38,509 nt of DNA from a virus (IMGVR_UViG_3300033149_004340:1-38509), one strand, 5' to 3'; counted from the first letter of the stretch, positions 5,734 through 38,509 are shown. Program-made: numbers and translations. Notes: generated from the letters alone by a model not told the origin.

Positions 5734-5751
5734 CCGTTGCCCGGATAGCCT

Positions 5752-7500: not shown

Positions 7501-7542
7501 CGCCGGCCCAACCACGGCACTCCACCGTGACCGGAGGAAAAA

Positions 7543-8265: not shown

Positions 8266-8288
8266 CGTTAGCTCGGAGATCGTGACCA

Positions 8289-14104: not shown

Positions 14105-14114
14105 TAGGTGAAAA

Positions 14115-15359: not shown

Positions 15360-15369
15360 GAGATGAAAG

Positions 15370-16938: not shown

Positions 16939-19900
16939 ATGCCTACACCAATAGAACAGATTATCCAGAACCCTGCCTTCTTCCGGGTCTTCCCGGAGGT
17001 AAGGACGGATTACGATTACTCTCTCCTGCGCTATTCGAAGCTGTTCCCTTTGAAGCTGAATATGCGGCTGCCTGACGAGGATATCGAGGAAGCCTTCGAC
17101 ACCATCGTCCAACAAGGAGACGAGCGCGATCTGCAATGGCTTCGCAGTCAGGCGGACATTCCCGATGATGCACCGCTCAACCCTCTCCGCTCCTACTGGT
17201 CCAAGAACGTCATCGCTCCCTTTATCAGCGGCGCCTACGATACCCTGCCAGGTGAAGCGGCCAAGGCCATTGCCCGTGAGTTCGGCGCCGAGAAAGCCGC
17301 GAAGTATATCGAATTGCTCGGTGATGTCCCGCGCGAAGGCTTGGACGAGAAGATCGTTGCCGGACTGATTAGCGCGGGGCCGATGATAGCCGAGCTAGGT
17401 ATGGCCGGAGGCGCCGTGAGAGCGGGCGCTTCCCGTATCCCGAAGATAGCCGCGTGGCTAAAGAACAGCCCTAAAATGGGAACCGTCCTGCTAAGCACCG
17501 CGACATTCGGCCTACCGGAGGTCATGAAAGCCCCTCTGACGGAACGCGTGGATTTGGGCGACGCACTGCGGGCCGGCGCTGTCGGTGCCGGTTTCGGTGC
17601 GGGTGGTCTCGCACTCGCCGGCGCACCCCTTATCGCTCGCATAGGCGCTCTGGCCGCATACGGCGGCGCGGAGGCATGGCACGCCGGCGGCGATACCGAC
17701 GATATTATTGCCTCGTCCGTAGTCATGGGAGCTCTGGGACTGCTCGAACTCGGCCGGCACCGCGAGGCCAAGAACATGCTGCGCGACCACTTAGAGGAGC
17801 GCGGTGTCGAACCCGAACAAGCGGAGCGCCTGTCGGAACAGGCCGCCGCCAACCTGGGCGAAATGGCCGGCGCTCAAGAGGCTCCCAGAGAGACTCCGCG
17901 TCCGCGTCCTCGTCCGAGAACCGTTGAAGAGGACGATTTTGTCGTTCCTTCTGTCTCACCCGAATGGCAGAGAATCTACGCGGACATTCTGAGCAGACCT
18001 GGGGAGGACATCTCAATCAGGGATATCCGTAGGCTTTTCGGGAAAGATTTGACACAGGCGCGCATCCGAGACATGATGGCTCCTCTCGAACAAGCCGGAC
18101 TCGTGGAATTCGTGAGCGGTCGAAACCGCTGGCGGATCAAAGGGAAAGAAAAAGTATGGCCCGCCGAGGATATACCGACCGTCGAACCTGAAATCGGCGC
18201 AGTCTCCCGACAGGACGTCCAACGACGGCGGAGGCGTAAGAAACCCAAGACAACCCGGCCTCGCAAGAGGAAGAAACCCGAAGATCAGTTTCAAGCGATG
18301 CGCGAGCGCATCCTATCCGTATTCGCTGAGCGCGGTGTGGAACCGCCCCCTCATGAGGAGCTGGATCACTTCGCCGCCGACGCCGTAACGAACCAGTGGA
18401 GCAGGAAGGAGATCGATGGGTTCGTCGATTTCGTTGAGACGCAGCGTCCGGAACGCGCCCCGTCTCCCGAGACGGAGCCCAATACCAAAGACTACGGTGA
18501 CGCTCCGCCGAATTTCTTCGATTTCGAACTGACTGATCGGATCGCCCGCGATCTGGCGAAGGACAGCCCTATTGAGCGTGTCCGGTTCAACGTTCCCAAA
18601 GGAACACTCTATGTGGTCCGAAGCAGCGGCTTTTCTGCGAGTCGGGTAGGGGAGTCCATAAAAATCGGCCTCCCCCAGGAACTCATCGACAATCTCGAAG
18701 GTCTTCGTTTCTCCGATCCTAATCGCATCCTCATAGGATCCTCGATTGCTCATGAGATAAGACACTTGGGACAAACCCTAACGAGAGGGGAGTCCCCCAT
18801 AGGCCCGACGGCTGGCACTCGCGCTCACTACACGGATCGGCGCGAAGTCGAAGCGCGCAAGGCCGAGATCAACTATCTGCTCGATCACGATCAACGCATT
18901 GCCGATTGGTTCAACCAAGAGGTCGGACTGGCTCGCGCGGCCGGTATGCCGGAGAAATTCTGGGCGGACGAGCTTCCGACTATCCTGGCCGACCATTGGC
19001 GCGCGGTTCTCGAAGAACGTTACGGGGTGAAGAACATTCCCAGGATGCGCGAGGTTCAGACTGCTCAGGGAGGCGTCCGCGCCCGCCCCGGCAAGGTCTT
19101 GTTAATCAAGGGAACGCCCGAGCACGAACGCGCCCTTGCCTATGCCAAACCGCGCTTCCAATGGCAAGCGGTTCAAACCCGTTACGGTCCCGCTGAACTG
19201 GCCCACGCCGTCGGCAAGATGGAGCGCGACGTCCTGATGCACCCGCGCGAGTTCGAGGCCGAAATCCAGGCAGCCCGTGAGCGCGGCGCTTCCGAGGCCG
19301 AAATCCGGCTCATGGAAGGCCGGAAGCTCATGCTCCAAGATATCCATGTCCAAGGCTGGCTCGGCCAATGGGACAATGCCCGGAAGCTCTGGAAGGCCCA
19401 GAATAAGGACTACTTCCAGCTCTACTATGATCGAGAGATAAACGCGGAGTTCCTCCAATACGACGAGAAGGTATCGCCCCAACAAGTCATCGCCGATGAA
19501 GAGGCCATGCGCCGGAACTTCCCTCATCTCATGCGGGAGGAACCTGTCTCGACAGAGAGCCTTACTGACCTGGATAAGACCCAGATACACCAGGAGATGG
19601 CTCTGGGCGTCGCTGCCGGCGGACCGGGCGCCCTCTGGCGACAGCTCGCGCCACCATTCAAGCTGGCCCGTATCTTCCCCGAGACCCTAGGCCGCGTGAT
19701 GAACCCATTCATCGACCTGTATAAAGAGGCCACTCGGCGCGAGACCAACAGCCACGCGAAAGCCCTTGAGAAGTTCGCTCGGTTCCCTGGTTTCCAAACG
19801 GTCCGTCAAGATATCGGCGACCGTATGCGCTTCTGGGCCGCAGTCCACGGCCGTCATCCCAAGACCGGAGTCGAGATAGACGAGGCGTGGTTGAAGAAGA

Positions 19901-21843
19901 ACGTCAAACCGGACGTCTTGGCGGCGGCCGAGATCTACAAGGAAGAAATGGCCCGCGCGACCGCCGAGGTCAACGGAATAATCCGGCAGCGCGTCGTTCG
20001 TGATCTTGCAAAGATCGGTGTCAGGCCCGAGCGAGTCGGAGTGCAACTCTACCCGACCGATTATCGCGGCATGGCAATCAGCGACGTCGAGGCCATCAAG
20101 CTCCTACAGACGACTATTCTGTCCGATGCCGTCGAGCGTGCCCGCTTAGACCCGAGCAAGAAGAACAAGGCCGAGGTAGCTTTCATTCGCAAGTCCATCG
20201 AGAATGCGCAGCGCGAACTACTCCGAATGGACCGCGAAGGGCCTCCGAAGTCCGGCCCCGGCGTCAAGTATGGTATCTACCACGCGCCCGATCCGATATT
20301 GGCTTTCGACCGGACGGTCCACGAGATGACCGACCGCGTGCTCCGCTATTATATGCGCGGCTTTATCCTTCCGGTTGCGCGACGGCTGCCGACCAATAGA
20401 CGATGGCAGCAATCACGACAGTTCTTGCTCGATTGGGTAGAAGCGACCCAGAAACAGCTCTCCGCTCCTTGGTCCGAGATGACTCGCTCGGCCATGATAC
20501 GCGGTGTCGAAGTGGTGAACAAGCTCATCAATCGCGATGGCTATGTTCCCCCCAAAGTGCTCAAGTTCATCGGTGAGTATTCGGACGCCGTTCATACTTT
20601 ACAGACCGCTCAGCTCTATGCGAAGATTTATCTCTCGCCGCGTTTCGGTCTGATGAATTACCTGCAACAGTTGAACGTAGCCGGCCGCGTTAACTTTCGC
20701 TCCTTCCTGTATGGATTCTTGGCCCAATTCGATAAGGGCAAGCGGCACGAGGCTCGAATGGCGGGCGCCTTGGAGTTCACCGGTCGGCATCTCGCCGAGA
20801 TACCCGGCGAACGTGCACGGCGGCGCGGCGAGAAGGTCGGCGCCCTTGCTCGTTGGACCGAGGAGCTGGTCCGCGTGGTAGCCTATCATGCCGGCCGGCA
20901 CGAGGCCATGAATCTTTACAACATGAAAGATCCGGTTGGGATACACAATTACGCGATGGAGGTCGTCGCGGATACCGCCTTCCTGTATTCGGCCTATAAC
21001 CGTCCATTGGCTTTCAAGTCGAGAACGGCTCGCGTAATAGGTCAGTTCCAGAGCTACCGTCTGCACTACTACTCGACCCTGAAACAATACTGGAACGAAT
21101 GGCGCGCCGGCGGTCCCAATGCGGAAGAAGCCAGGAAGCGATTCGCTCGGACACTCGCCATCGGGACCGTCACGGCGGGAACCGGTATCATCCCTATGTA
21201 TTCGGTCCTCGAATACGCCCTCGAAAAGCTCGGCGTATTCGACGGCGAGGACGACATCTATCGTGAGGCCGTGCTGCGCTCTCCGATGGACATGGCATTC
21301 AGCCGTATACTCGGTATTGACTTCTCGACCAAGCGGGCGTTCGCCCTGGGGGACGTTCCAGACGATCCCATGTGGGCGCTCGGTCCGACAATGGCCGATA
21401 TTAAAACCCTCCATCGGGCTGCCGAGAGCGGTTCCGTCTACGATATGGTCCTGGGACCGATACCGCGTCTCCGCTCGGCCATCGACGCTGCTCTGGCGCA
21501 CCAGCGCGGCTATACGACCCTCGCGGGCGAGCACTACCGCGAGATGCCGAACGCCCTTGAGAGTATAGGCATAGCGCTTGGCCTATCCAAGAGCCCACGG
21601 TCGGCCAAGTATGAACTCATGGAACACTTGCGCCGTATCTATGGCGACCCTGATACTCCCACGACAGAGAAACGGCGCGCCGCCAACGAGTGGATACGGT
21701 TCTTCCGTAAGAATTACGGTATTCGATTGACGAAGCAACAGTTGACAACGGCAACGAAGTCCGAGCAGACTCGGGCGGAGCGTATTCGCCGTCGTCGTCA
21801 GGAATCACGAGAAATAGCTTTGGGATGGTTCTCTGAGGGATAA
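16939..21843 (+). CDS. Giant internal virion (polyvalent-type) protein with a HEXXH zincin-like domain, 1634 aa
   Basis: This is the largest gene in the window. Visible regions: a helical N-terminus (1-130); a Gly/Ala-rich hydrophobic stretch (about 150-265) that could enter a membrane; a winged-helix-like segment (about 342-405); a basic linker (428-447); a domain with HEIRH at 605-609 followed by REVEARKAE, whose Glu636 or Glu638 could be the third zinc ligand; and a very long helical C-terminal region (about 870-1634) with MNYLQQLNVAGRVNF and RVIGQFQSYRLHYY. Phage polyvalent proteins ejected with the genome combine such modules. The metallopeptidase assignment is inferred from the motif and needs structural support. 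Its ATG abuts the upstream stop. Confidence 0.7.
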   Translation: MPTPIEQIIQNPAFFRVFPEVRTDYDYSLLRYSKLFPLKLNMRLPDEDIEEAFDTIVQQGDERDLQWLRSQADIPDDAPLNPLRSYWSKNVIAPFISGAYDTLPGEAAKAIAREFGAEKAAKYIELLGDVPREGLDEKIVAGLISAGPMIAELGMAGGAVRAGASRIPKIAAWLKNSPKMGTVLLSTATFGLPEVMKAPLTERVDLGDALRAGAVGAGFGAGGLALAGAPLIARIGALAAYGGAEAWHAGGDTDDIIASSVVMGALGLLELGRHREAKNMLRDHLEERGVEPEQAERLSEQAAANLGEMAGAQEAPRETPRPRPRPRTVEEDDFVVPSVSPEWQRIYADILSRPGEDISIRDIRRLFGKDLTQARIRDMMAPLEQAGLVEFVSGRNRWRIKGKEKVWPAEDIPTVEPEIGAVSRQDVQRRRRRKKPKTTRPRKRKKPEDQFQAMRERILSVFAERGVEPPPHEELDHFAADAVTNQWSRKEIDGFVDFVETQRPERAPSPETEPNTKDYGDAPPNFFDFELTDRIARDLAKDSPIERVRFNVPKGTLYVVRSSGFSASRVGESIKIGLPQELIDNLEGLRFSDPNRILIGSSIAHEIRHLGQTLTRGESPIGPTAGTRAHYTDRREVEARKAEINYLLDHDQRIADWFNQEVGLARAAGMPEKFWADELPTILADHWRAVLEERYGVKNIPRMREVQTAQGGVRARPGKVLLIKGTPEHERALAYAKPRFQWQAVQTRYGPAELAHAVGKMERDVLMHPREFEAEIQAARERGASEAEIRLMEGRKLMLQDIHVQGWLGQWDNARKLWKAQNKDYFQLYYDREINAEFLQYDEKVSPQQVIADEEAMRRNFPHLMREEPVSTESLTDLDKTQIHQEMALGVAAGGPGALWRQLAPPFKLARIFPETLGRVMNPFIDLYKEATRRETNSHAKALEKFARFPGFQTVRQDIGDRMRFWAAVHGRHPKTGVEIDEAWLKKNVKPDVLAAAEIYKEEMARATAEVNGIIRQRVVRDLAKIGVRPERVGVQLYPTDYRGMAISDVEAIKLLQTTILSDAVERARLDPSKKNKAEVAFIRKSIENAQRELLRMDREGPPKSGPGVKYGIYHAPDPILAFDRTVHEMTDRVLRYYMRGFILPVARRLPTNRRWQQSRQFLLDWVEATQKQLSAPWSEMTRSAMIRGVEVVNKLINRDGYVPPKVLKFIGEYSDAVHTLQTAQLYAKIYLSPRFGLMNYLQQLNVAGRVNFRSFLYGFLAQFDKGKRHEARMAGALEFTGRHLAEIPGERARRRGEKVGALARWTEELVRVVAYHAGRHEAMNLYNMKDPVGIHNYAMEVVADTAFLYSAYNRPLAFKSRTARVIGQFQSYRLHYYSTLKQYWNEWRAGGPNAEEARKRFARTLAIGTVTAGTGIIPMYSVLEYALEKLGVFDGEDDIYREAVLRSPMDMAFSRILGIDFSTKRAFALGDVPDDPMWALGPTMADIKTLHRAAESGSVYDMVLGPIPRLRSAIDAALAHQRGYTTLAGEHYREMPNALESIGIALGLSKSPRSAKYELMEHLRRIYGDPDTPTTEKRRAANEWIRFFRKNYGIRLTKQQLTTATKSEQTRAERIRRRRQESREIALGWFSEG

Positions 21844-21844
21844 A

Positions 21845-22390
21845 GTGGCTGTCATGACAAGTATCGCAGGTATAGAAAGGAATTGGAGAGAGGTTGCGAA
21901 GACGTTAGGAATCCCCACCTATCGTCAACTCGTAACAAGCGATCCGAATGAGATCGATGCCTTCGTGAATGAAAAGGTCGGTTGGTATCAACTGGCTTGG
22001 GCGGACGATCCCGGTTACCCAATCGAAGGGCCTTCCGCCAGCGTCGCCGAGGTAGCCCTGTTCATTCAGTCCCGATTCGATGTGCTTCTGTCGGTAACTC
22101 GGTGCGGCCCAAAGGAACGGCGGCGGCGCGAGATCGCGGCCCGGTTCGATGGGACGCAATTCGAGGACGACGTTCTCAAGCGCGAATGGGTAGACGGCGA
22201 CTGGAAGGAAACGATAACAAACCGGGAGGATTACGATTACCGCCGCTTGGTCGGCGTCCTGGCGCCGGCTCTACAGGCACTCCACTTTCGTGGAACCGTC
22301 TACGCATATTACGATGCGACAGAGGGCGGGATCGTCCTGACAGGATGGGGGTTCGATAATGCCCACACCAGTATCGTTGACTTGGACTAA
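21845..22390 (+). CDS. Hypothetical protein, 181 aa
   Basis: This soluble, acidic alpha/beta protein lies between the giant internal protein and the fibre, so it is probably a tail or fibre-associated protein, but I do not recognise it. The GTG at 21845 has GAGGG close upstream, and a possible ATG lies three codons on. No catalytic motif, cysteine pair or signal is visible. Its last 32 bp overlap a small gene in another frame that starts at 22359. Confidence 0.6.
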   Translation: MAVMTSIAGIERNWREVAKTLGIPTYRQLVTSDPNEIDAFVNEKVGWYQLAWADDPGYPIEGPSASVAEVALFIQSRFDVLLSVTRCGPKERRRREIAARFDGTQFEDDVLKREWVDGDWKETITNREDYDYRRLVGVLAPALQALHFRGTVYAYYDATEGGIVLTGWGFDNAHTSIVDLD

Positions 22391-26446: not shown

Positions 26447-27136
26447 TTCCAGTCCCCAGGCGTCCCAACCCGGCGCCCGTTCGCGAGCGAACAGCTCGAT
26501 CCTAGGAAGGTCCCCCAGGAGAGTCACGATACGGTCCCGAACTTCGTCGGGCTTTTGGCTATGCTTCCGCACAGGAGAGACCACCAATTGACGGACGGCC
26601 TTGTTAATACGACGGGGCCGTCCTTTTACACCTAACAGACACAGTTCTACGTTTGCCCGAGTCCAATATCCCATCCCCACGTGCCACTTACCGTGCTTGG
26701 TCGTCTTGGCCCAGGAGAAGGCGGCCGTCTTGTATTTGAACCCCCAAGATTCCATGACCGAAAAAGCCTCGGGAAGCATCGGCAGCGTTGCCCAAAGGAA
26801 TAGAGCGCAGTCAGGGGCCGCGATAGCTCCGACATCTATACAGGCAATATTGTCGGGGAGCATGGTGGTGTAGTGAGAGTCGGCGCTACGGCCGGTTCCG
26901 GTGTCTCGACACCAGACTTTGAATCTCCACGGAGGGTCGGCGTAGATGATGTCGTATCTACGCCCATCGCGGATAAGTTCTTCAAGGCAAGTTCCAGGCC
27001 AGGAGCGGCCTCTGTCGCCTTGCGGAACGCCGCTATCGCTCCCTCGTTGTCCCCCAGATTCCTCTTCGCCACACCGATGTTGTTCCAGCTCAGGGCGTCG
27101 TCCGGTTTGATCGTGACTACCTTCTCGTGCGCGCAT
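26441..27136 (-). CDS. MT-A70 family DNA adenine methyltransferase
   Basis: The product shows YDIIYADPPW (the DPPW catalytic motif of N6-adenine methyltransferases), then HYTTMLPDNIACIDVGAIA, LFLWATLPMLPEA and a KPDEVRDRIVTLLGD segment, all typical of phage MT-A70 enzymes. It would methylate adenine in DNA, for example to evade restriction. The start is uncertain. The only usable in-frame starts are ATG 27136 (GGAAGGA upstream) and ATG 27151, both inside the upstream glycosyltransferase, so about 65 N-terminal residues would be read from a frame shared with its TPR region. A frameshift joining the two genes is the alternative. Confidence 0.85.
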   Translation of the reverse strand: MRAREGSHDQTGRRPELEQHRCGEEESGGQRGSDSGVPQGDRGRSWPGTCLEELIRDGRRYDIIYADPPWRFKVWCRDTGTGRSADSHYTTMLPDNIACIDVGAIAAPDCALFLWATLPMLPEAFSVMESWGFKYKTAAFSWAKTTKHGKWHVGMGYWTRANVELCLLGVKGRPRRINKAVRQLVVSPVRKHSQKPDEVRDRIVTLLGDLPRIELFARERAPGWDAWGLEL

Positions 27137-28305
27137 AGTGCTTCCTTCCATTCGTTTTGGGCCAGGAAGACCTGTCCCATGTTCGCGTATATCTCCGCTT
27201 CGAAGGGGGGATGCGGCTCAAAGGCCAGCGATTGCCGCCACGCGGTCAAGGCTCGTTGGTAGCCGCCGAACTTGGCGTGCATGTTGCCGATGTGGAAGTA
27301 GGCCACGTAGCCCAGACCGATACAGTTCAGGATATAGTGATGCCCCGCCGGACAGGTTCGCTCCTTCTCTTCGGCATAGAGATAGTGCTCGAAGAGGGTT
27401 ACGACCTCAAGGCTATCCCCGCCGTCTTCCGTTAACAACTCGGCCAGCACGTAGAGAGCGTCGATATAATTCGGATCCTCCGCCAGCGCCGCCCGGCAGT
27501 CGCGGATGGCCGAACGCCGGTCGCCCAGGGCGCGGCACATAATGGCCCGCATGTAGCGTCCCATTTGCTGGATCTCCGAACCGTTGGGGGAATATTCGAT
27601 GGCGCGGGCGGCGTGGACCAGACCGGCATCGAATTCCCGCAGGTTATTCAGACAGACGCAGAGATTGTAATGCTGGAAGCCGTTTGTCGGATCGTCTTCC
27701 AAAGTCTTATAGAGCAACCCCTTGGTCCGCGTCCACTTGCGGCGCATCTCTTCCGGGCTTAGGCCGTAGCCCTTGTGTATGATGCGTATCGGCAAGGTCT
27801 CCGTTCGTCCGGGAGAGTGAAGCTGATTGTGCACGCGGCCGTGATAGAAGTAGTCCTTTCTGTTTCGGAACAGGCGGGGATTGTAAGGTATCCCCCATTG
27901 CGCCCCTCCGTCGAAGGTCAGGTTGATATTCGGACACATGACGACATCGATATCGTTCCGATTGACCGTCTTCCGGATGAGCGCGTGTTGGTCCTTCTCG
28001 ATATACTCATCGGCGTCGAGTATCAGGATCCAGCCTCCGGTCGCGGCCATAAGACTGACGTTCCGGGCTTTCGAGAAGCTGTCTTCCCAAGGCTCGTGAA
28101 TGACCTTGGCGCCGGCGGCCTCGGCTATCTCCACCGTCCGGTCAGTCGAACCGGTATCGACGATTATCATTTCATCGACCAGACCTTGGACGCTTTTCAG
28201 GGCCTCCGGCAGGTCGCGCTCCTCATCGCGGACGATCATGCACAGGCTGATAGTCGGGCGCGGCCGGATTGCTTTACGGGGGCGTTTTCGTTTCGGTTTG
28301 ACCAT
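26836..28305 (-). CDS. GT2 family glycosyltransferase with TPR domain
   Basis: This 489-aa protein starts with a GT-A GT2 domain: TISLCMIVRDEERDLPEAL (18-36), MIIVDTGSTDRTVEIA, and LDADE (96-100) as the DxD-type metal site. Residues about 195-445 are helical TPR repeats (FQHYNLCVCLNNLREFDAGL, ALSWNNIGVAKRNLGDNEGA). SunS-like and other TPR-linked GT2 enzymes modify proteins or polysaccharides; the acceptor here is unknown. AAGGAG precedes the ATG at 28305. The TPR similarity ends near ALKNLSAMG. The last 40 residues are low-complexity and read over the methyltransferase frame, as if the natural stop were lost. Confidence 0.85.
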   Translation of the reverse strand: MVKPKRKRPRKAIRPRPTISLCMIVRDEERDLPEALKSVQGLVDEMIIVDTGSTDRTVEIAEAAGAKVIHEPWEDSFSKARNVSLMAATGGWILILDADEYIEKDQHALIRKTVNRNDIDVVMCPNINLTFDGGAQWGIPYNPRLFRNRKDYFYHGRVHNQLHSPGRTETLPIRIIHKGYGLSPEEMRRKWTRTKGLLYKTLEDDPTNGFQHYNLCVCLNNLREFDAGLVHAARAIEYSPNGSEIQQMGRYMRAIMCRALGDRRSAIRDCRAALAEDPNYIDALYVLAELLTEDGGDSLEVVTLFEHYLYAEEKERTCPAGHHYILNCIGLGYVAYFHIGNMHAKFGGYQRALTAWRQSLAFEPHPPFEAEIYANMGQVFLAQNEWKEALCAHEKVVTIKPDDALSWNNIGVAKRNLGDNEGAIAAFRKATEAAPGLELALKNLSAMGVDTTSSTPTLRGDSKSGVETPEPAVAPTLTTPPCSPTILPV

Positions 28306-30117: not shown

Positions 30118-32622
30118 TCACTTACATTCTTTCCAGTTGCGGCCCCAAGCGATCTCGACGGGTATCGTTATCTCGTGCCGACCGATCCTCATGGGGCGCT
30201 CCATGTAGCCGCGAATGGTGGGCTCGTATTCTTCTTCTTTCCCCTCGGGAACCTGACCTACGATGGCATCATGGACCTGTAGGAGCAGCTGGACATCGGT
30301 CTTTTTGAACAGGTCGATCAGCGCTTGGCCGATGACCCAACAAACCACGTCTTGGGGGATAAAGCTCAGTGCTTTCCTTACATCATGGCCGGAGATGAAA
30401 GGCCCGTGCGGTCGAATAAGTAGACGTCTCCTGGTGGGAGAACGGATAGCACGTCGCTGTTTAACCACTCGTTCAACCGTCCTTTGCCAAAGGACAATCT
30501 TGTGGTAGATCGTTTTGAAGCGAGCAAGGAGGAGCTTGCAGTCGGCTTCGCTGATGTCGCGTGCGTAATCGTCTTCAAGGATAAGATTACGAAGTGTCCG
30601 AGGCCCCATTCCGTAATTGAAACCGTGGCCCGCTCTTTTGGCGAGGTAGCGTTGATCAGGTGTGACGTCTTCCTCAGCAACCCCGAAAAGGCGGGCCGCG
30701 TTATACGTATGTATGTCAACGTTAGCACGAAGTTTCTCCAAAAGGTTAGTGTCGTCGGCTAGGGCGGCGACGACCCAGGTTTCGGCGCGTTCCAGGTCGG
30801 CCTGGAACATGATCATTCCAGGATCGGCTATGAACATGGCCCGCTCCTCCGGCGAGCGGTTTTGGAGATTGGTCCCGCTGCCGTCGAAGGACTTGCGCGA
30901 GGCCAACCGGCCCGTATCCGTGCCGTGGATACGGTAAGAGCAACGGCATCGGCCGTCGGCATCGGTAGCGACCTGTAGGGCTTTCGAATAGAAGTTCTGT
31001 AGCTCGTTTACCTTTCGGAAAGCCTCAAGGAGAGGCGGTATCTTCCCGTGGCGGCGTTGGAAATGTCGAAGCAGACGGATGACCGCCTCTTCATCGACCG
31101 AGGCCCGCCCGGTTTTCTCCGTCCGCTTCTGGACGGGCCAGCCGAGGTCTTCGTGGAACAGCCGAGCGACCTGCTGTTGACTGCCCCAGTTGATGGAGAT
31201 TTCCTTCGCCAATGCGCGGGCTTTGCCGATAGCGCGGCCCTTGAACGGCGGGGAAAAGAATTCATCCCAAATCGAACCGGCCCGTGAAGCGATTTCCGGA
31301 GCCGCGAGACAGGAAAGATAATGAGATAATCTATTAATCTCTTTAGTCGTTTCCCGTTTCATAGCGGAACGCTTTCGGATGTCGATCTTAATCCCGCGTT
31401 TCTGCATCGCCAGCAGAGGTTCGGGAAGCTTCATTACGTAGTTGAAGAATAAATCGCTGAGGCCGGCGCGCTCAAGCTCGGCCTCTAACTTTTGAGCGAT
31501 CTCCCAGGTGGCAAGGCAGTCGGTGGCGTTATATCGCCAGAGCCGGTCGATACTGTCGATCTCAAGAGCGGCGGAATCATCCTCATCTTCCTTGGCGTCG
31601 CGCCATTTTATCTGATCCTTGAAATATGGTCTTGACGTATACAGGGAAGCCAGAAACCCGAGATCGTGAGCGGACGCCGAATCGAGCGTATGATGGGCCA
31701 GCATGGTATCGAGGTAGAAGTCTGCACATCCGATTCCGAGCTTGCCGAGATACCATAGGTCGAAGCTGGCGTTTTGTCCGACGAAGCGGCGGCGGGAAGA
31801 GAAAAATCGTTTCAAGTTGGACAATAGGGCCAGCTCTTCCTCCAAGGTCCAATACGACTCTAGGAGATCGCCAACTTGTCGCACGAAAGGGATTACGAGT
31901 GCATTGTGGATACCATCCGCTATCCCTAAACACGCGACGGTCCTCCCGATACGCTCGATGTCGAAGGCTATGACTTCTCCGGCCGTATTTAGCCATTCCA
32001 TCGTCTCCTTGAAGGTCGGATTGATTAGGATTCGGTCCTCTTCTTCGTATGTGATCGGGATGCCCCGAAGCGCCTCGGCGACCGTTTTAAGATCATGGAG
32101 CGCGAGGCCGTAGTTTCGGGGCGACCTTCCGGGCAGTAGATTAGCCGGATGGAAGGTAGGTATAACGGTGCATTCCCGTCCTCCGATTTCCACTCGATAA
32201 ATTGAACCGCGTAGCTTGGTGATACCACGCTTTCCAAGAAGCGCACTAATAGCTTCGTTTCCGAGGGGGACAACGATCTCAGGTTCGACAGAAGCAAGTT
32301 CATCGAAAAGCTCTTGCTTGGACCATTGGAGGATCGTAGGCGCGTGTCTGCGGAAGAGATCGAAGTCATTATCCGGCGGGCGATACTTGACAACGTTGGT
32401 GAGATAAGGGAGTCGGGTGATTCCCGCATCGCCCAGGATTCTATTGAGCAACTTACCGGCGCGGCCAACAAAGGGACGGCCTCTTTCTTCTTCTTCTTCA
32501 CCAGGGGCTTCTCCTATTAAGACCAACCGGGCCTTCGAAGGACCGGAGGGTCCGACGTAGGGAAAGCCGGCGGCCTCCATTTCGGGTATGCGGCCGGGAT
32601 CCTTGAATTCAGACTGTCCCAT
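30118..32622 (-). CDS. Uracil-DNA-glycosylase-like / 3'-5' exonuclease / family A DNA polymerase fusion
   Basis: This 834-aa protein is the replicative polymerase. The ATG at 32622 follows GGGAAGGAG; the ATG 12 codons earlier lacks a ribosome binding site. Residues about 30-185 are a UDG-superfamily domain (GEAPGEEEEERGRPFVGRAG, then FHPANLLPG). Residues about 215-390 are a DnaQ-like exonuclease with Asp221/Glu223, Asp288 and Asp368. The family A polymerase (about 400-834) has Asp609/Glu614 (motif A), the O-helix with Lys662, His666 and Tyr670 (motif B) and VHD with Asp785 (motif C). No cysteine occurs before residue 151, so the Fe-S cluster of family 4 glycosylases is absent. Confidence 0.92.
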   Translation of the reverse strand: MGQSEFKDPGRIPEMEAAGFPYVGPSGPSKARLVLIGEAPGEEEEERGRPFVGRAGKLLNRILGDAGITRLPYLTNVVKYRPPDNDFDLFRRHAPTILQWSKQELFDELASVEPEIVVPLGNEAISALLGKRGITKLRGSIYRVEIGGRECTVIPTFHPANLLPGRSPRNYGLALHDLKTVAEALRGIPITYEEEDRILINPTFKETMEWLNTAGEVIAFDIERIGRTVACLGIADGIHNALVIPFVRQVGDLLESYWTLEEELALLSNLKRFFSSRRRFVGQNASFDLWYLGKLGIGCADFYLDTMLAHHTLDSASAHDLGFLASLYTSRPYFKDQIKWRDAKEDEDDSAALEIDSIDRLWRYNATDCLATWEIAQKLEAELERAGLSDLFFNYVMKLPEPLLAMQKRGIKIDIRKRSAMKRETTKEINRLSHYLSCLAAPEIASRAGSIWDEFFSPPFKGRAIGKARALAKEISINWGSQQQVARLFHEDLGWPVQKRTEKTGRASVDEEAVIRLLRHFQRRHGKIPPLLEAFRKVNELQNFYSKALQVATDADGRCRCSYRIHGTDTGRLASRKSFDGSGTNLQNRSPEERAMFIADPGMIMFQADLERAETWVVAALADDTNLLEKLRANVDIHTYNAARLFGVAEEDVTPDQRYLAKRAGHGFNYGMGPRTLRNLILEDDYARDISEADCKLLLARFKTIYHKIVLWQRTVERVVKQRRAIRSPTRRRLLIRPHGPFISGHDVRKALSFIPQDVVCWVIGQALIDLFKKTDVQLLLQVHDAIVGQVPEGKEEEYEPTIRGYMERPMRIGRHEITIPVEIAWGRNWKECK

Positions 32623-32944
32623 CGGGGATCTCCTTCCCGGTGCCTTGGCAGTCTTCATGATATCCAGGGTGATATTTTGCTATCTCCCCATTATATGGCA
32701 CTCCTTCTACAGCGTCGTCTAATCCACGATTGAACCAAAATATACTCATTTTATTTTCCTCACACGTCGGGCACACCTTTTCCTTTATCGGCCGCCCGCA
32801 TTGGTAGCAATACGTCGCGTCCTGGGACATCCAGCGGTCGCCTTCATCGGCATCGAAAAAATAGATGACAACGAATTGCGCTCCACAGTGAGGGCATTCG
32901 TTATAGGGGAACTCTCTAGGGAAAAGAAGTGTCGCTTTTTTCAT
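32609..32944 (-). CDS. Cysteine-rich zinc protein with DnaJ-type C-terminal knuckle, 111 aa
   Basis: Two rubredoxin-like pairs, CPHC and CYQC (17-20 and 46-49), form one zinc site. A third pair CPTC (58-61) and a C-terminal HEDCQGTGKE resemble a DnaJ-type CxxCxGxG knuckle with one Cys replaced by His. The ATG at 32944 overlaps the upstream stop (ATGA). The codons of its C-terminal TGKE also provide the ribosome binding site for the DNA polymerase, whose ATG lies inside its end. Function unknown; the zinc sites suggest a nucleic-acid or protein-interaction role. Confidence 0.7.
   Translation of the reverse strand: MKKATLLFPREFPYNECPHCGAQFVVIYFFDADEGDRWMSQDATYCYQCGRPIKEKVCPTCEENKMSIFWFNRGLDDAVEGVPYNGEIAKYHPGYHEDCQGTGKEIPDGTV
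32620..32641 (-). promoter_or_regulatory. Shine-Dalgarno and start of the DNA polymerase embedded in the upstream CDS end
   Basis: On the minus strand the element reads ACCGGGAAGGAG, then ATC, then CCCGATG. It encodes TGKEIPD in the upstream gene and gives GGAAGGAG plus the ATG of the polymerase. An almost identical element lies at 35947-35968. Confidence 0.7.
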
Positions 32945-33195: not shown

Positions 33196-33514
33196 CTATC
33201 CCCTTTCCCGGCCAGCCGCGTGCAGCCGATACCTCAAGCATCATGTATACAAGGTCTTCGAGCTTCTTCAGCGCATAGTGCGGATTGTCCTTGGTCATCT
33301 TCAAGGGAATCCCGCCTACGCACTCGGCCCAATCCTCGGTCGCGTGGACGAACCAGACCTCGAACGAAAAGGACCACGGGTTGTAATAAACGCCGCATTC
33401 CGTTACGTTTTCTATATTCGTGAGCTGTTTATCCTTCCTGATTCCGTCGAAGAACGTCTCGGGATCTTGAAGGATATCCAAAGTGAAGACACGGTTTGGC
33501 CCTCCGTTAGTCAT
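33182..33514 (-). CDS. Hypothetical protein, 110 aa
   Basis: The ATG at 33514 has GGAGAGGAG upstream and overlaps the dehydrogenase stop by 8 bp. An upstream in-frame start, 13 codons earlier, was rejected. The product has a mixed alpha/beta look (FTLDILQDPETFFDGIRK, then a Trp-rich YYNPWSFSFEVWFV) and no cysteine pairs. No family is recognised. It belongs to the sugar/cysteine-rich operon by overlap. Confidence 0.6.
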   Translation of the reverse strand: MTNGGPNRVFTLDILQDPETFFDGIRKDKQLTNIENVTECGVYYNPWSFSFEVWFVHATEDWAECVGGIPLKMTKDNPHYALKKLEDLVYMMLEVSAARGWPGKGIDVER

Positions 33515-34349
33515 GACAGCTCCTCTCCTGTGCCAGGGACAGAATACGGACAACTCGCTCGCCCTCGCCGCCGTTGGTTATCGGGGCGCGGTCGTTCTCA
33601 ATACACTCGATAAAGTGTCTCATTTCCTGTTTCAGGGGCTCTGGATCCTCGGCCGGCACGTAGTCATTGAACTCGTATGTCCGTCCGTTCTCTCCATAAG
33701 TATTGACTGTAAAGGTTCGCTTGGGCGGGCTGTAATTGTGCCCGAACTCGATACGGGCGCTGACGGCGCGGACGGGCCATTCGAGTTCGATATACCCCAG
33801 GGAGTGGGACGTTCGACACCGGATGACGGATGGTTCCTCGCGCATAAAACCGAGGACCATCGATACGTCATGGGGGGCGAGGCGCCATAGGGCGCTCTCC
33901 TGGTAGTGAGGCTCCTGGTTCTTGATTCGGACGGCGCGGATATGCCGTATTTCTCTAGGGTCTATCTCTTCCTTGAGCCGTTGGAAGCCGGCGTGATAGT
34001 GCATAATGTGACCGACCATGAGGACTCTCCGATGGTCGAGAGAGAGACGGTGAAGATCCTGCGCTTCCCGCCGGTTCATGCACATGGGCTTCTCTACGAA
34101 GACGTGCTTACCTGCCTGTAAAGCTTGAGCGGCAAGACTGTAATGGAACTCGGAAGGGGTGGCTATGGCGACGGCATCTATGTCGTCGGCGCACTTCACC
34201 AAATAGTCGGCCCCCGGTAATTGATAGACTCCCCGGAGGGATTCTTTCGATATTCTCGGGTCTACGATTGCCTTGAGCACACCGAGTTCACTCAGCACTC
34301 GCGCGATGTTCTTGCCCCAACGTCCGCAACCAATTAATGCCGTTTTCAT
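33507..34349 (-). CDS. wlbA-like: Gfo/Idh/MocA dehydrogenase, WlbA/WbpB-like
   Basis: This 280-aa protein has the NAD-binding motif GCGRWG (7-12) and the catalytic EKP (Lys87). The opening GCGRWGKNIARVLSELG strongly resembles WlbA/WbpB, which oxidise UDP-GlcNAcA at C3 so that an aminotransferase can add the 3-amino group. It is short of the usual 310-350 residues, with a compact C-terminal beta domain. Its ATG overlaps the stop of a mini beta-helix gene. The aminotransferase (38.2 kb) and WbpD-like acetyltransferase (4.0 kb) complete the pathway. Confidence 0.85.
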   Translation of the reverse strand: MKTALIGCGRWGKNIARVLSELGVLKAIVDPRISKESLRGVYQLPGADYLVKCADDIDAVAIATPSEFHYSLAAQALQAGKHVFVEKPMCMNRREAQDLHRLSLDHRRVLMVGHIMHYHAGFQRLKEEIDPREIRHIRAVRIKNQEPHYQESALWRLAPHDVSMVLGFMREEPSVIRCRTSHSLGYIELEWPVRAVSARIEFGHNYSPPKRTFTVNTYGENGRTYEFNDYVPAEDPEPLKQEMRHFIECIENDRAPITNGGEGERVVRILSLAQERSCHD

Positions 34350-34558
34350 TAAACCTTCCTTCCTCGGATGGTTGCCCGGTCCGGTATCTCAGTATTGTCG
34401 GGAACGACGACGAAGGGACCGATAAAGACACCCGATCCGATGGTGCAGTTACGCCCTATCTTGGCGGTTTTCTCTACGTGGGTCCAAGGCCCTATGATTG
34501 TGTCCTCGCCAACGTCGTCCGTTTCTACGATAGCCGTGGGATGGATCCGAGCACCCAT
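34349..34558 (-). CDS. Mini left-handed beta-helix protein, 69 aa (WbpD-like N-terminal fragment)
   Basis: The whole protein is hexapeptide coils (IHPTAIVETDDVGEDTIIG, TAKIGRNCTIGSGVFIG). It resembles the start of the 170-aa WbpD-like protein at 4033 but lacks the catalytic coils, the FTNV segment and the C-terminal helix. It keeps an intact start, follows the XRE stop directly (TAGATG) and overlaps the dehydrogenase start. It could be a remnant acetyltransferase whose function was taken over by the plus-strand gene, or a stand-alone partner. Acetyltransferase activity is unlikely. Confidence 0.7.
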   Translation of the reverse strand: MGARIHPTAIVETDDVGEDTIIGPWTHVEKTAKIGRNCTIGSGVFIGPFVVVPDNTEIPDRATIRGRKV

Positions 34559-34774
34559 CTATCCTTCCCACGTTCCTGCAAGCCAGTCCAAGGGCACCCC
34601 CAGGGCCTTCGCTATCTGAACCGCGTTGGTCAGTGAGGGCTCTCGCCGGCCCGTTTCGAAGTGGGATAAATGAGTGCGATCCATTTGAGGAACGATTAGC
34701 TCTCCGAGTTCTTTTTGGGTAAGCCCCCGCCAGTGGCGGGCCTGTCGTAATCTCTCAGCGAATAGTTTTACCAT
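34559..34774 (-). CDS. XRE-family helix-turn-helix regulator, 71 aa
   Basis: The protein is essentially one lambda-repressor-like HTH domain: LTQKELGELIV (18-28), then DRTHLSHFETGRREPSLTNA (32-51) as recognition and loop region. It probably controls phage transcription, perhaps its own operon. The ATG at 34774 overlaps the end of the M15 gene, with GGGAG upstream. No integrase or partner repressor is seen, so lysogeny is not supported by it. Confidence 0.85.
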   Translation of the reverse strand: MVKLFAERLRQARHWRGLTQKELGELIVPQMDRTHLSHFETGRREPSLTNAVQIAKALGVPLDWLAGTWEG

Positions 34775-35472
34775 CTTACTCTCCCTCTTGGGTCTAAGAC
34801 GTGAACGTGTATCCAGACCTTGCGGCCGGTGCCTTCACAGGCGGGGCAGCCTTTCCATCCCCCCAAATCTCCTCTACCTCCGCAGTCCTTGCACTCCTCA
34901 TCATACAGATGCCATCCGCCGTAGTGAATAGGCTCATACAGGGCGTTCAGGGCTTCCATTGCGGGGATGTCCAGGGTCCAGGGGGCGACATTTTCTCCGT
35001 TACACCGGCGGCAAGGCATGGTGCCCGTGCCCATCGGATCCCCTGGGATTGGGTCGGAGCCGTCGTGGTAAGCGGGTCTGCGTCCCGTGCCGTGGCATTC
35101 AGGGCAAACCTCTCGTCTTTTCACCTGGAAATCACAGGCGAAAGAGAAGTGCAGAAGTTTCTTGCCGCTATAGAACCATTCAAACGCGGGGTCGAAAATT
35201 ATCTCACTGCCCTCCGCGACGCGCCTCGGTAGGTGCCAGCTCTTCTTCGCGCCGCCCACCGCAGCGTTATGCTTGGGGCAACGGCATCCGGACGTGGGGA
35301 ATAGGCCATATTCCAAAGGCATATTGCCCAACCTTGCGTAATGCACATTCAACCACGCCCGCATCTGTTCCAGCATGGCTACGACTGATGGGTGTATATT
35401 GTCCCAACCGCAACAGGGACAAGCGAATTCTCGACGGCTAAAGTGGGGGCTAAGGTCTCCCATCATTTTCAT
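34768..35472 (-). CDS. M15 peptidase (possible endolysin) with two DnaJ-like zinc-knuckle insertions
   Basis: This 234-aa protein has the M15A D-Ala-D-Ala carboxypeptidase layout: LSPHFSRREFACPCCG (7-22), SGCRCPKHN (61-69), His80 (KKSWH), Asp114 (ACDF) and IHVHV with His222/His224, which supply the zinc ligands. Family members cut peptidoglycan stem peptides and often serve as phage endolysins. Two insertions interrupt it: 119-165 with CPECHGTG and CRRCNG, and 191-217 with CKDCGGRG and CPACEGTG. Each carries four cysteines, enough for its own zinc. Candidate starts are the ATG at 35472 and two ATGs shortly after it. No signal peptide or membrane anchor is seen. Confidence 0.75.
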   Translation of the reverse strand: MKMMGDLSPHFSRREFACPCCGWDNIHPSVVAMLEQMRAWLNVHYARLGNMPLEYGLFPTSGCRCPKHNAAVGGAKKSWHLPRRVAEGSEIIFDPAFEWFYSGKKLLHFSFACDFQVKRREVCPECHGTGRRPAYHDGSDPIPGDPMGTGTMPCRRCNGENVAPWTLDIPAMEALNALYEPIHYGGWHLYDEECKDCGGRGDLGGWKGCPACEGTGRKVWIHVHVLDPRGRVRW

Positions 35473-35699
35473 TCCTCCGTTTCTTGGCGAGCCTCCTCGT
35501 CGCGCTGATACCTACCCCTTGGGCGGATATACGAGAGCTTTCCGTCCGGATTGCAGTCCGGGCAGGGAATAGGCTTCACCAACCCCATCGTTACAGACAG
35601 GGCGCTCTGCACGGGCAACGTTTCCCAAACCCACCACGCGCTCTGCTCATCGTCGTTGGCTATAAAATGGCAGTCGTCGCATCGGTCACACTTGCTCAT
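35469..35699 (-). CDS. Cysteine-rich small protein, 76 aa
   Basis: The N-terminus has CDRCDDCHF (4-12) and the C-terminal half has PCPDCNPDGK, which could together hold one zinc. The tail is Glu/Arg-rich. The ATG at 35699 lies inside the end of the upstream gene, with its ribosome binding site GAGGAG formed by the codons of EE in that gene's C-terminal EEAPDEQV. Its stop overlaps the next start (ATGA). Function unknown. It belongs to a run of cysteine-rich genes between 32.6 and 36.7 kb. Confidence 0.65.
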   Translation of the reverse strand: MSKCDRCDDCHFIANDDEQSAWWVWETLPVQSALSVTMGLVKPIPCPDCNPDGKLSYIRPRGRYQRDEEARQETEE

Positions 35700-35949
35700 C
35701 AGGGGCCTCCTCGTCCGGACCTTCCCAAAGCGCCTCTTCCTCGGCTTCGGATAGCTTGCCGGGGTAGCTGATTACCTGCATCCCACCTCGGTCAAAAGTG
35801 GCGACGAATTGTTCTTTGTGCCTGCCGTTGCTCACGCGCACGAGTGCCCTACCCTCATTGGAGTTTCCCAGGGGCTCTCTGCTCACCCACACCATTACAT
35901 TCCCAGCATCTATCCACAGCGACTCGCCGTGATTTGTCTCAATCTTCAT
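35686..35949 (-). CDS. Hypothetical protein, 87 aa
   Basis: The start is the ATG at 35949 inside the end of the upstream gene (GAAGGAG formed by its TGKE codons). A longer frame starting at 36018 was rejected because it lacks a ribosome binding site and runs over the upstream gene. The product is beta-rich (NVMVWVSREPLGNSNEGRAL), without cysteines, and ends in EEAPDEQV. No family recognised. Confidence 0.6.
   Translation of the reverse strand: MKIETNHGESLWIDAGNVMVWVSREPLGNSNEGRALVRVSNGRHKEQFVATFDRGGMQVISYPGKLSEAEEEALWEGPDEEAPDEQV
35697..35715 (-). promoter_or_regulatory. Shine-Dalgarno embedded in the upstream CDS end (third junction copy)
   Basis: On the minus strand the element reads GACGAGGAGGCCCCTGATG. 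It encodes DEEAPD near the end of the 87-aa protein and gives GAGGAG and the ATG of the 76-aa gene. It resembles the elements at 32620-32641 and 35947-35968 but the upstream knuckle codons are absent. Confidence 0.55.
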
Positions 35950-36742
35950 CGGGGGCCTCCTTCCCGGTGCCCCCGCAGTCGGGGCAGATATCACGACACT
36001 GGATAGGGTATAAGTCACCTTCTCGGTCAGGGTCGCCAGAGTCTAGGGCCATTTCTCGGGTGACCGGTGCAAGCTCTTCCCACTCGACCTCGCAGCGACC
36101 TTTGCACGTCGGGCACACCCCGACCTCCGAACTATCATGCTTTACTTCCATTTCTCGGCGGGCCTCAGCCTTCTCCACATACTCAGGATCACCAATAACC
36201 CAAGCACCCTCTTTGGCGGAATCTGCTACAAGCTCTTTGAACTCTCGCCAGCATCTTGCGTCCCGCTCTGCGATGGCGAGGTCCCGCTTGAGGCTTATTA
36301 TTTCCCTATCTTTATTCATGCATAGAACGTAAAGTTCCTGGGCAGCGAGCGCTTGTGCTTGCGCTTGCAATAGATATCCGCGCTTCGCCCGGTTCGCCCT
36401 TAAAAAGAGTTCTCGGTCCCGCCTTCCAAGCAACACCAGTCGATTATGGTCGTCCTCCCATCCCTGTTCCAACTCCTCCACCCTGGCCTTGAGCCGGTCC
36501 CTCTCGGCCTCTAGATCTTGCAGAGCAATCCTCAGACGAGCTATCGTGGAGGCTAGTTCTCTGGTTCGCAACAACCGCTTGACCGAAGCTTCCTCGTTCT
36601 CGGTCTTAAGTCCCTCGCTCCGGTTTTCACGGTGCAGTTGCTCAACCTCGGACTCCTGGTAGCGAGCTCGAAATTCCTCGTTTTCTCGCTGATAGCTGGC
36701 TATTATTTTATGCCTGTATCTCCGGTAAAGTTGACCGATCAT
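35939..36742 (-). CDS. Coiled-coil protein with C-terminal DnaJ-like zinc knuckle, 267 aa
   Basis: Residues about 20-120 and 130-175 form long coiled coils (for example EEASVKRLLRTRELASTIAR). The C-terminus has CPTCKG followed by CRDICPDCGGTGKE, two CxxCxG elements that can form a DnaJ-like zinc site. The ATG at 36742 overlaps the stop of the preceding 63-aa gene. The end overlaps the next gene, whose ribosome binding site is encoded by its TGKE codons. It may be a scaffold for protein complexes; function unknown. Confidence 0.65.
   Translation of the reverse strand: MIGQLYRRYRHKIIASYQRENEEFRARYQESEVEQLHRENRSEGLKTENEEASVKRLLRTRELASTIARLRIALQDLEAERDRLKARVEELEQGWEDDHNRLVLLGRRDRELFLRANRAKRGYLLQAQAQALAAQELYVLCMNKDREIISLKRDLAIAERDARCWREFKELVADSAKEGAWVIGDPEYVEKAEARREMEVKHDSSEVGVCPTCKGRCEVEWEELAPVTREMALDSGDPDREGDLYPIQCRDICPDCGGTGKEAPDED
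35947..35968 (-). promoter_or_regulatory. Shine-Dalgarno and start embedded in the upstream CDS end (second junction copy)
   Basis: On the minus strand the element reads ACCGGGAAGGAG, then GCC, then CCCGATG. It encodes TGKEAPD in the 267-aa gene and gives GGAAGGAG plus the ATG of the 87-aa gene. It differs from the polymerase junction (32620-32641) only in the codon between the two blocks (GCC versus ATC). Confidence 0.7.
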
Positions 36743-36930
36743 TCATTCGTCCTCTGCATTACCGCTATGTCTATTCCCGCCTCAGTCCTAAAGTATTCCG
36801 CAGTGTTGTGATGATCGGAAAAACGGGCGACAACTCCCGCTGCCATTTCCAGAGCCCGCTTCTCAACTTCAAGCTCGGCTTCAAGCTCCCGGATGCGGGC
36901 TTTTGCCTCTTGCAATTCTTTCTCGACCAT
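36739..36930 (-). CDS. Small coiled-coil protein, 63 aa
   Basis: Residues 1-35 form an amphipathic coiled coil (KELQEAKARIRELEAELEVE), followed by a short hydrophilic tail. GAGGAGAG precedes the ATG at 36930, and the stop overlaps the start of the 267-aa coiled-coil gene (ATGA). The two may form a complex through their coiled coils, which is inference. No known family. Confidence 0.55.
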   Translation of the reverse strand: MVEKELQEAKARIRELEAELEVEKRALEMAAGVVARFSDHHNTAEYFRTEAGIDIAVMQRTNE

Positions 36931-36951
36931 TTCCGCGCTCTCTCCTCTTGA

Positions 36952-37737
36952 TCAATCGTCTCTCTTCCTTACCTCATCGAGTTCATGAACCGCCAACCAT
37001 ATACGAGTTACCAACAGCTGTAACTGGCGCTTTACCTCTTCGATAGAAGGGTTCTCCATAACGGCCGGCATGTGAGGCTTAAGTTCTCGCTCCCATGTCG
37101 CCCGGTATTGGACGAATGCTGGCGGCGTAGGCGGTTGGTTGAGCACGAAGTCGGGCACGATGCCTCGATAGGCTTCCCTGAGACAAGCCTTGTCGGAGGG
37201 CTCGTAATACTCGATAACCTCGCGCCAATCGAGATCGGAGAAGGGCACTCGCAAGTCCAGTTCGAAATACTGGTGGACGATATCGTAGGTCTTACGGACA
37301 TATTCTATCTGTCCCGCCCACCCGTGGAGATAGTCGCGGTCGTGGTAGCCGCCGAAGTGCTCATCCGCACCCTCGCCGATAAAGATAGTCTTGCGCATAT
37401 CCCGGTGGGCGGCGCGGGCCAACCAGTAAGGCCACAGGTTATACCTCGGCTGATCGAACAGGCGAAGTATCTGCGGCAACGTCCGAACGAAGTTCCGAAC
37501 AGGGATGACCTGGTGAGAGAGACTGTAGTGTTCGGCTACCCGACGAGCGGCGTCGGTAATCCCTCCATCATCTACCCCAAAGTCCGCCGTATAGGTCAGG
37601 GGTTCCTCGGGACTCTCTTCCACCACGTGGTGGAGGATGATGGTGCTGTCGATCCCGCCGGAGATGTAGACGGCTGGCCGGGGGCCGAGAGACTGAACGA
37701 CGTGGTAACGGATCATGTCAACGAGAGGACTAGTCAT
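36952..37737 (-). CDS. Asparagine-synthetase-like amidotransferase, no glutaminase domain
   Basis: This 261-aa protein has the PP-loop SGGIDS (26-31) and GEGADEHFGGY (121-131), both diagnostic of the asparagine-synthetase C-terminal domain that adenylates a carboxylate and replaces it with an amide. The N-terminal glutaminase domain, with its catalytic Cys2, is missing. It may therefore use free ammonia or another glutaminase. In sugar clusters such enzymes convert uronic acids to uronamides, which would fit the dehydrogenase/aminotransferase pathway here. The ATG at 37737 overlaps the upstream stop by 8 bp. Confidence 0.8.
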   Translation of the reverse strand: MTSPLVDMIRYHVVQSLGPRPAVYISGGIDSTIILHHVVEESPEEPLTYTADFGVDDGGITDAARRVAEHYSLSHQVIPVRNFVRTLPQILRLFDQPRYNLWPYWLARAAHRDMRKTIFIGEGADEHFGGYHDRDYLHGWAGQIEYVRKTYDIVHQYFELDLRVPFSDLDWREVIEYYEPSDKACLREAYRGIVPDFVLNQPPTPPAFVQYRATWERELKPHMPAVMENPSIEEVKRQLQLLVTRIWLAVHELDEVRKRDD

Positions 37738-37969
37738 CGGAAGTCTCCTTTGCGTTCTGCTCCCTGGCTAAGAGTATTCGGTGATAGCTCTTAATGAGGC
37801 CAATCAGCTTGCCTACCGTAAACAGGACGCCGATAAGCCAAGCGAGCGGTTTCAGGATAAGGCTGATACCGAAAAGGACCAGCAATCCCCCTGCCGGCGC
37901 GTCGAGGGTGTTCAACGTCTCCGCCAGGGCCTTGAGCATCGTTCCAAACTCAGAGGTAAAGGCATCCAT
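37730..37969 (-). CDS. Small two-helix membrane protein, 79 aa
   Basis: The ATG at 37969 follows AAAGGAGA. An upstream in-frame start over the neighbouring gene was rejected. After about 25 polar residues, two hydrophobic segments (GGLLVLFGISLILKPLAWLI, then VGKLIGLI) are consistent with membrane helices. The C-terminus is charged. It sits between another membrane protein and the amidotransferase, so it may be a holin-like protein or part of sugar export or assembly. Function not recognised. Confidence 0.6.
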   Translation of the reverse strand: MDAFTSEFGTMLKALAETLNTLDAPAGGLLVLFGISLILKPLAWLIGVLFTVGKLIGLIKSYHRILLAREQNAKETSDD

Positions 37970-38207
37970 TATCGTCTCCTTTCTCAATGCACCAGATAAT
38001 CCCGGTGAGGATAGAGAGAATAAGAAAAACGACGCCAATAGCGAACAGAAGGGCTCCGATCCAGCCTTCCCCTATCTGCACCCCTATGGTGATGAACACG
38101 GCCGCGAGGGGAGCAGCCGCGACAAAGACTCTTCCTGGTCCGCTAAAGAAGGACCAGAACCCCATGTCCTTCAACCCTATCGAGAAGCACTCAAGAAACG
38201 CTTTCAT
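37950..38207 (-). CDS. Small membrane protein, 85 aa
   Basis: GGAGG precedes the ATG at 38207, which lies 17 bp inside the end of the aminotransferase gene. Two hydrophobic stretches (VFVAAAPLAAVFITIGVQI and IGALLFAIGVVFLILSILTG) suggest two membrane helices with a short loop. Its last 20 bp overlap the next membrane protein gene. Function unknown; the placement inside a sugar operon hints at a role in glycan export or host-membrane change. Confidence 0.6.
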   Translation of the reverse strand: MKAFLECFSIGLKDMGFWSFFSGPGRVFVAAAPLAAVFITIGVQIGEGWIGALLFAIGVVFLILSILTGIIWCIEKGDDNGCLYL

Positions 38208-38509
38208 TAAGCACCTCCATCAGACGGCCAATGACGAAATCCTGATCGGCGTGGGTCAATTCATAATAGAGCGGCAACGCGATGGACCGCGTATGGACCG
38301 CGTGAGCATTCGGGAACTCGGCCGCTCCCGTATACCAGGGACGGAACCGCTCGATCATGTGGAGAGCGTGGGTGCCTTGGCGAGTCATAATGCCGAACCC
38401 TCGTAGTTTCTCCATGATGGTCTCGGCCGCCTTGAACTTCTTGTCATTGATGACGATGACGAATGCTTGCCAGCTGTGACCAGGGTGAGGACGGGGAAGA
38501 GCGAAGAGA
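38191..38509 (-). CDS. DegT/DnrJ/EryC1-type aminotransferase (C-terminal part)
   Basis: The frame is open from the window edge to the stop at 38191, giving 105 residues of the C-terminal domain. It reads HSWQAFVIVIND at the start, then LRGFGIMTRQGTHALHM, FPNAHAVHTRSIALPLYYEL and QDFVIGRLMEVL. This is the typical end of PLP-dependent sugar aminotransferases of the DegT family, such as WbpE/WlbC. They add the 3-amino group after WlbA/WbpB oxidation. The PLP lysine lies outside the window. The 85-aa membrane-protein gene starts inside its end. Confidence 0.8.
   Translation of the reverse strand, partial: LFALPRPHPGHSWQAFVIVINDKKFKAAETIMEKLRGFGIMTRQGTHALHMIERFRPWYTGAAEFPNAHAVHTRSIALPLYYELTHADQDFVIGRLMEVLNESVS

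Follow-up and report, generated by a model that had tools for sequence, protein, structure and literature searches.

The window analysed here is the whole of a 38,509-base IMG/VR virus record (IMGVR_UViG_3300033149_004340), an incomplete contig from an uncultured phage. A preliminary description of this DNA had read a DegT-type aminotransferase, a WlbA/WbpB-like dehydrogenase and a WbpD/WlbB-like N-acetyltransferase as consecutive enzymes of uridine diphosphate (UDP)-2,3-diacetamido-uronate synthesis, and had listed an asparagine-synthetase-like enzyme, two glycosyltransferases and another beta-helix acyltransferase beside them. The named genes are present where they had been described or close by, with scores far above chance, and all are real open frames whose upstream sequence resembles ribosome sites (Table 1). 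The right-hand genes run leftward and the late genes run rightward, so the missing portion of the genome may be where the two strings part.

Table 1. Sugar-related genes of the window, followed by neighbouring and virion genes.
Feature	Position	Strand	Evidence
Gfo/Idh/MocA protein, predicted NAD(P)-dependent sugar-nucleotide 3-dehydrogenase, 280 residues	33507-34349	-	Pfam GFO_IDH_MocA, E 2e-19
DegT/DnrJ/EryC1 aminotransferase, C-terminal 105 residues, cut by contig end	38191-38508	-	PF01041, E 4.6e-9
WlbB/WbpD-type N-acetyltransferase, 170 residues	4033-4545	+	PDB 3mqg (WlbB), E 3.5e-47
GT2 glycosyltransferase fused to TPR repeats, GmaR/SunS-like	26836-28305	-	Pfam GT2, E 8e-21; TPR
Putative GT-B (GT1-like) glycosyltransferase, between WlbB and portal	4546-5733	+	Weak GT1 Pfam, E 0.0011; PHROG glycosyltransferase, E 1.6e-4
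Asn_synthase (ATP-PPase) domain protein	36952-37737	-	PF00733, E 4.5e-23
Second hexapeptide acyltransferase, 173 residues	3508-4029	+	Hexapep, 32.2 bits
Short left-handed beta-helix protein, WlbB-like, 69 residues	34349-34558	-	Hexapep, E 1.4e-15
HTH_3 small DNA-binding protein, in the coupled gene string of the dehydrogenase	34559-34774	-	Pfam HTH_3, E 7e-16
Virion genes TerL, portal and capsid, flanking the acetyltransferase	1856-9329	+	Pfam
TerL	1856-3337	+	Pfam
P22-like portal	5752-7500	+	Pfam
Capsid	8289-9329	+	Pfam

By sequence, the N-acetyltransferase can be firmly assigned to the WlbB/WbpD type, as had been described, and is predicted to be a full-length left-handed beta-helix. It aligns almost without gaps to WlbB (3mqg) over residues 11-154, with FTN conserved as a motif at residue 87, and WlbB outranks other N-acetyltransferases, WxcM and QdtC as its solved relative. 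Among the sequences that we fetched, its identity reaches 66% to bacterial WbpD-type domains fused or adjacent to a dehydrogenase. A short WlbB-like protein of 69 residues had been overlooked. It corresponds to the N-terminal ~60 residues of WlbB and is 44% identical to the WlbB of the window over 59 residues (E 2e-14). Its gene stands directly before the dehydrogenase start, overlapping it at TAATG, and is joined to the HTH gene via TAG/ATG, giving a coupled gene string; the product is either the remnant of a second WlbB that has decayed or a small helix subunit.

The dehydrogenase keeps the NAD-binding glycine motif GCGRWG and the EKP and HD motifs, and is ~40-50 residues shorter than its relatives, with the loss in the C-terminal domain. 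An AlphaFold2 (AF2) model made with 51 sequences as input had a predicted local distance difference test score (pLDDT) of 91.8. Its top fold match was GnnA (7bvj), the UDP-N-acetylglucosamine (UDP-GlcNAc) 3-dehydrogenase of Acidithiobacillus, at a Z score of 34.1, about tied with 3c1a (Z 33.0); Bordetella WlbA reached 30.7. The top NCBIfam model was likewise a UDP-GlcNAc 3-dehydrogenase, an archaeal model matched at 92.5 bits, far under its cut-off of 450. In a tree with characterised enzymes, the protein grouped neither with the WbpB clade (3oa2, 3o9z) nor with WlbA (3q2k), starred branches lying between; it joined a third clade, supported at 100/94, with GnnA as its basal branch. Judged by this tree, it is not an orthologue of WbpB or WlbA. 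The label ‘WlbA/WbpB-like’ thus fits at superfamily level only: membership of Gfo/Idh/MocA and the motifs stand, but the protein lies outside both clades and its fold is nearer GnnA.

What remains of the aminotransferase covers PF01041 columns 270-359 of 360, which makes its family secure. A search for the rest of the gene at the other end of the contig gave nothing, PF01041 matching at the right end only. The Asn_synthase protein, present as described together with the second hexapeptide acyltransferase, consists of the ATP pyrophosphatase (ATP-PPase) part with an SGGIDS motif and without a glutaminase domain; an amidation step is possible.

The strongest evidence that the dehydrogenase, DegT and WbpD enzymes work one after another comes from bacterial relatives, in which these families are repeatedly fused or adjacent. 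In 21 of 80 bacterial loci with near relatives of the dehydrogenase, a single protein of ~440-620 residues unites the dehydrogenase and a WbpD-type domain; elsewhere among the 80, WbpD is the next gene, and DegT is often adjacent. Locus L056 reads 6-dehydrogenase, fused dehydrogenase-WbpD, DegT and Epimerase_2, the whole Wbp set, and L061, L091 and L117 hold most of it. Genes in these neighbourhoods were predicted with a simple open-frame picker; in 14 of the 80 loci it overlooked the dehydrogenase. The 6-dehydrogenase and epimerase labels come from similarity among the loci's own proteins and recognisable motifs, with no curated model. Fusions with DegT neighbours (L047, L049, L051, L052, L056, L069) are among the closest bacterial relatives of both phage proteins, at ~31-36% identity for the dehydrogenase and up to the figure given above for the transferase, whereas the phage encodes them separately, on opposite strands. 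Such natural Gfo/Idh/MocA-WbpD fusions occur in several bacterial phyla, in these loci and others, and apparently represent a bifunctional enzyme.

The trio of families also recurs in other viruses. Relatives of the N-acetyltransferase occur in 39 viral contigs. The 12 closest (L002-L012 and L032; identity of at least ~54% across most of the protein) include nine with a Gfo/Idh/MocA gene and seven with DegT, but independent cases are fewer than counted because L007, L008 and L010 are apparently one virus lineage and L011 is a large record with the genes far apart. DegT, dehydrogenase and WbpD are adjacent in L007/L008/L010, L009, L012, L036 and L134, unlike their arrangement in the window. One stretch of L007 holds the trio with a terminase, an SU10/P22-type portal, a capsid match and a WbpI-type epimerase, and in L012 a terminase and a P22-type portal lie next to it. 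The dehydrogenases differ from that of the window: those of L002, L013, L007 and L009 fall in the WbpB clade, that of L012 is clearly orthologous to WbpB (3o9z, E 6e-66), and that of L036 is WlbA-like. Because viral dehydrogenases belong to different clades, the route has, as far as the tree can tell, been acquired by phages more than once. We set aside 19 viral contigs with ~44% identical WlbB-like proteins (L014-L031, L033), in which neither a dehydrogenase nor DegT was found. Single-sequence queries of IMG/VR gave no close relatives of the dehydrogenase, the aminotransferase end, the Asn_synthase protein, the second glycosyltransferase or the portal. A tblastn search of phage records with the dehydrogenase returned nothing but weakly identical, unannotated records; these may be host DNA, and we did not use them as evidence.

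Collectively, we lean towards a model in which the phage supplies a UDP-2,3-diacetamido sugar through three central steps, probably to be attached to a protein of the virion or the host. In this model we infer the order in which the enzymes act, their substrate, whether the product is acidic or neutral, and its target. UDP-GlcNAc or its uronic acid, UDP-GlcNAcA, would be supplied by the host or by genes lying past the end of the contig. The 280-residue dehydrogenase would oxidise C3 of this UDP-2-acetamido sugar, the DegT enzyme would aminate the 3-keto group, and the new amine would then be N-acetylated by the hexapeptide transferase of WlbB type. Phage glycosyltransferases would then transfer the sugar, the GT2-TPR protein being the best candidate and, by its architecture, most likely acting on protein. 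The acceptor is plausibly a virion protein because the acetyltransferase and second glycosyltransferase genes lie in the late string between terminase and portal.

Several observations weigh against this model. The sugar genes form two divergent strings and not one operon, and ~70% of the aminotransferase, its pyridoxal phosphate (PLP) lysine included, lies off the contig. The substrate class of this enzyme is not secure because its nearest equivalog model, PseC and not WbpE, is matched far under its cut-off (38.8 bits against 423.5), and all its scores are weak. The dehydrogenase branch is long (1.39), and its exact place within the third clade is therefore unsettled. The viral records L002 and L013 hold WbpB and WbpD, with DegT absent from the record. 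Finally, the tie between the glycosyltransferases and the diacetamido sugar is putative.

If the genes were unrelated acquisitions serving no single pathway, then two gene strings and a truncated WlbB copy beside the dehydrogenase would be unsurprising, but in bacteria and several viral lineages these families turn up side by side or fused again and again, which makes this improbable. Neither the structural model of the dehydrogenase nor the sequence of the transferase placed these proteins in unrelated families, and the pathway reading was not refuted. The consecutive-enzyme claim accordingly survives in part. The families are the right ones for 3-oxidation, 3-amination and 3-N-acetylation, and a route that oxidises, aminates and then N-acetylates is well supported by sequence comparison; the uronic-acid part is not supported. 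A five-step UDP-ManNAc3NAcA pathway has been described (PMC10622841). The phage shares the three enzyme families of WbpB/WbpE/WbpD (WlbA/WlbC/WlbB), with a close WlbB homologue, but its genes are phage-borne, its dehydrogenase is shorter and of another clade, and WbpA and WbpI are absent from the contig. Searches of the contig, which is incomplete, gave no PF03721 match for a UDP-GlcNAc 6-dehydrogenase (WbpA) and no PF02350 match for a 2-epimerase (WbpI); because neither gene is there, ‘uronate’ is unproven.

Two forms of the product have to be weighed. In the acidic Wbp route, the reading of the preliminary description, the host would give UDP-GlcNAcA and the product would be UDP-GlcNAc3NAcA. 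The complete Wbp order in L056, 6-dehydrogenase-type genes near relatives in eight loci (L046, L056, L059, L060, L061, L078, L091, L117) and the rank of WlbB as closest solved transferase all speak for it. Many bacterial relatives, however, have no 6-dehydrogenase within 4 kb, and the GnnA-like fold of the dehydrogenase, its position outside the WbpB and WlbA clades and the lack of both Wbp genes on the contig leave the acidic route a strong contender that falls just short of being probable. Under this route, the Asn_synthase-like protein might amidate the carboxylate.

The alternative is a neutral route, in which enzymes like GnnA and GnnB would convert UDP-GlcNAc to UDP-GlcNAc3N, to be acetylated to UDP-2,3-diacetamido-2,3-dideoxyglucose. 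The top NCBIfam model, the top fold match, the position of GnnA at the base of a supported clade that contains the dehydrogenase and excludes WbpB and WlbA, and the lack of a 6-dehydrogenase on the contig favour it. GnnA and GnnB share with the phage a 3-dehydrogenase fold and a DegT partner, but they make the amine, UDP-GlcNAc3N, for lipid A, whereas the phage has a WlbB-type N-acetyltransferase. As the NCBIfam score is under cut-off and a 6-dehydrogenase is often found in the gene clusters of the nearer bacterial relatives, we regard the neutral route as quite possible but somewhat doubtful.

Where would such a sugar go? The preliminary description had proposed the particle, the DNA or the host surface. 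Its two glycosyltransferases fare differently. The GT2-TPR protein is clear, and its resemblance to GmaR and SunS had been overlooked: these are its best solved GT2 relatives in the PDB (E 4.9e-24 and 4e-17). Both have a GT2 domain that acts on proteins; GmaR, which also has TPR repeats, attaches GlcNAc to flagellin (PMC9638930). Homologues 42-43% identical in the catalytic part adjoin WbpB and WbpD in viral loci L002 and L013. For the protein at 4546-5733, the weak GT1 match is under Pfam's cut-off, and a single-sequence fold (pLDDT 38.6) was not usable. By analogy, the architecture of the GT2-TPR protein and its likeness to GmaR and SunS favour a protein target, perhaps on the virion, with DNA the least supported target. 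Phage-encoded glycosyltransferases of mycobacteriophages modify capsid and tail proteins (PMC12363180). A more specific proposal, a dedicated protein-glycosylation system that makes its own UDP-2,3-diacetamido sugar and places it on virion proteins through a GmaR-like GT2-TPR enzyme, as a module recurring in several phage lineages, is tentative and on present evidence rather unlikely. No GmaR/SunS-type or mycobacteriophage virion glycosylation system is known to use a phage-encoded diacetamido donor pathway.

The sugar could instead be placed on the host surface, in O-antigen or capsule, altering a receptor or blocking superinfection. A related bacterial sugar, ManNAc3NAcA, is an O-antigen component (PMC10622841), and a virome survey interpreted viral wbpD along these lines (PMC13211439). 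Among the scanned proteins there was no sign of a flippase, polymerase or membrane glycosyltransferase, and the one clear glycosyltransferase has a protein-acting architecture; we consider a host-surface target somewhat unlikely. Phage DNA glycosylation exists in general, and the dehydrogenase gene string includes a coupled HTH gene, but the scanned proteins included no base-hydroxylating or thymidylate-synthase-like enzyme and gave no DNA glycosyltransferase match, so we rejected modification of the phage DNA as very improbable.

Other GT2 domains in the viral loci lie in composite frames. A 556-residue frame (L002:18398-20068) combines GT2 with GIY-YIG and NUMOD3 homing-endonuclease motifs, and a 722-residue phage protein beside the sugar cassette of L007 (L007:10506-12674) combines GT2 and methyltransferase domains.

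The rest of the contig is that of a phage, with an SU10-type adaptor, a tailspike-like protein of 1038 residues and a family-A DNA polymerase (PolA). The polymerase belongs to a single protein at 30118-32658 (-) that also has a family-4 uracil-DNA glycosylase domain and a 3'-5' exonuclease; PHROG 17 spans the same interval. The interval 33507-38509 of the sugar genes also contains unrelated genes, for an M15 peptidase, small membrane proteins and a coiled-coil-like protein. The M15-type peptidase (34768-35472, -) carries inserted CxxCxGxG zinc-ribbon-like repeats and is likely an endolysin, and two small membrane proteins near it (37730-38207) could be holins. Several large late genes at 10687-22390, one of 1634 residues, had no Pfam match and almost no PHROG match. 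We do not believe an ARAGORN call at 11847-11934, which is odd, ill-defined and within a coding region.

Gene sets of this kind are known in other phages: wbpD is on record as a viral auxiliary gene (PMC13211439), and surveys have reported O-antigen nucleotide-sugar genes in phages (PMC12911398). What is new here is the split set, the non-WbpB dehydrogenase and the GmaR-like transferase. The bacterial dehydrogenase-WbpD fusions mark a 3-dehydrogenase branch, of which we found no characterised member. The virome survey listed a pathway gene singly as auxiliary and interpreted it as host-surface modification (PMC13211439). The occurrence of three steps together in phage genomes, by virion genes and with a protein-type glycosyltransferase, makes glycosylation of virion proteins with a rare sugar a directly testable alternative.

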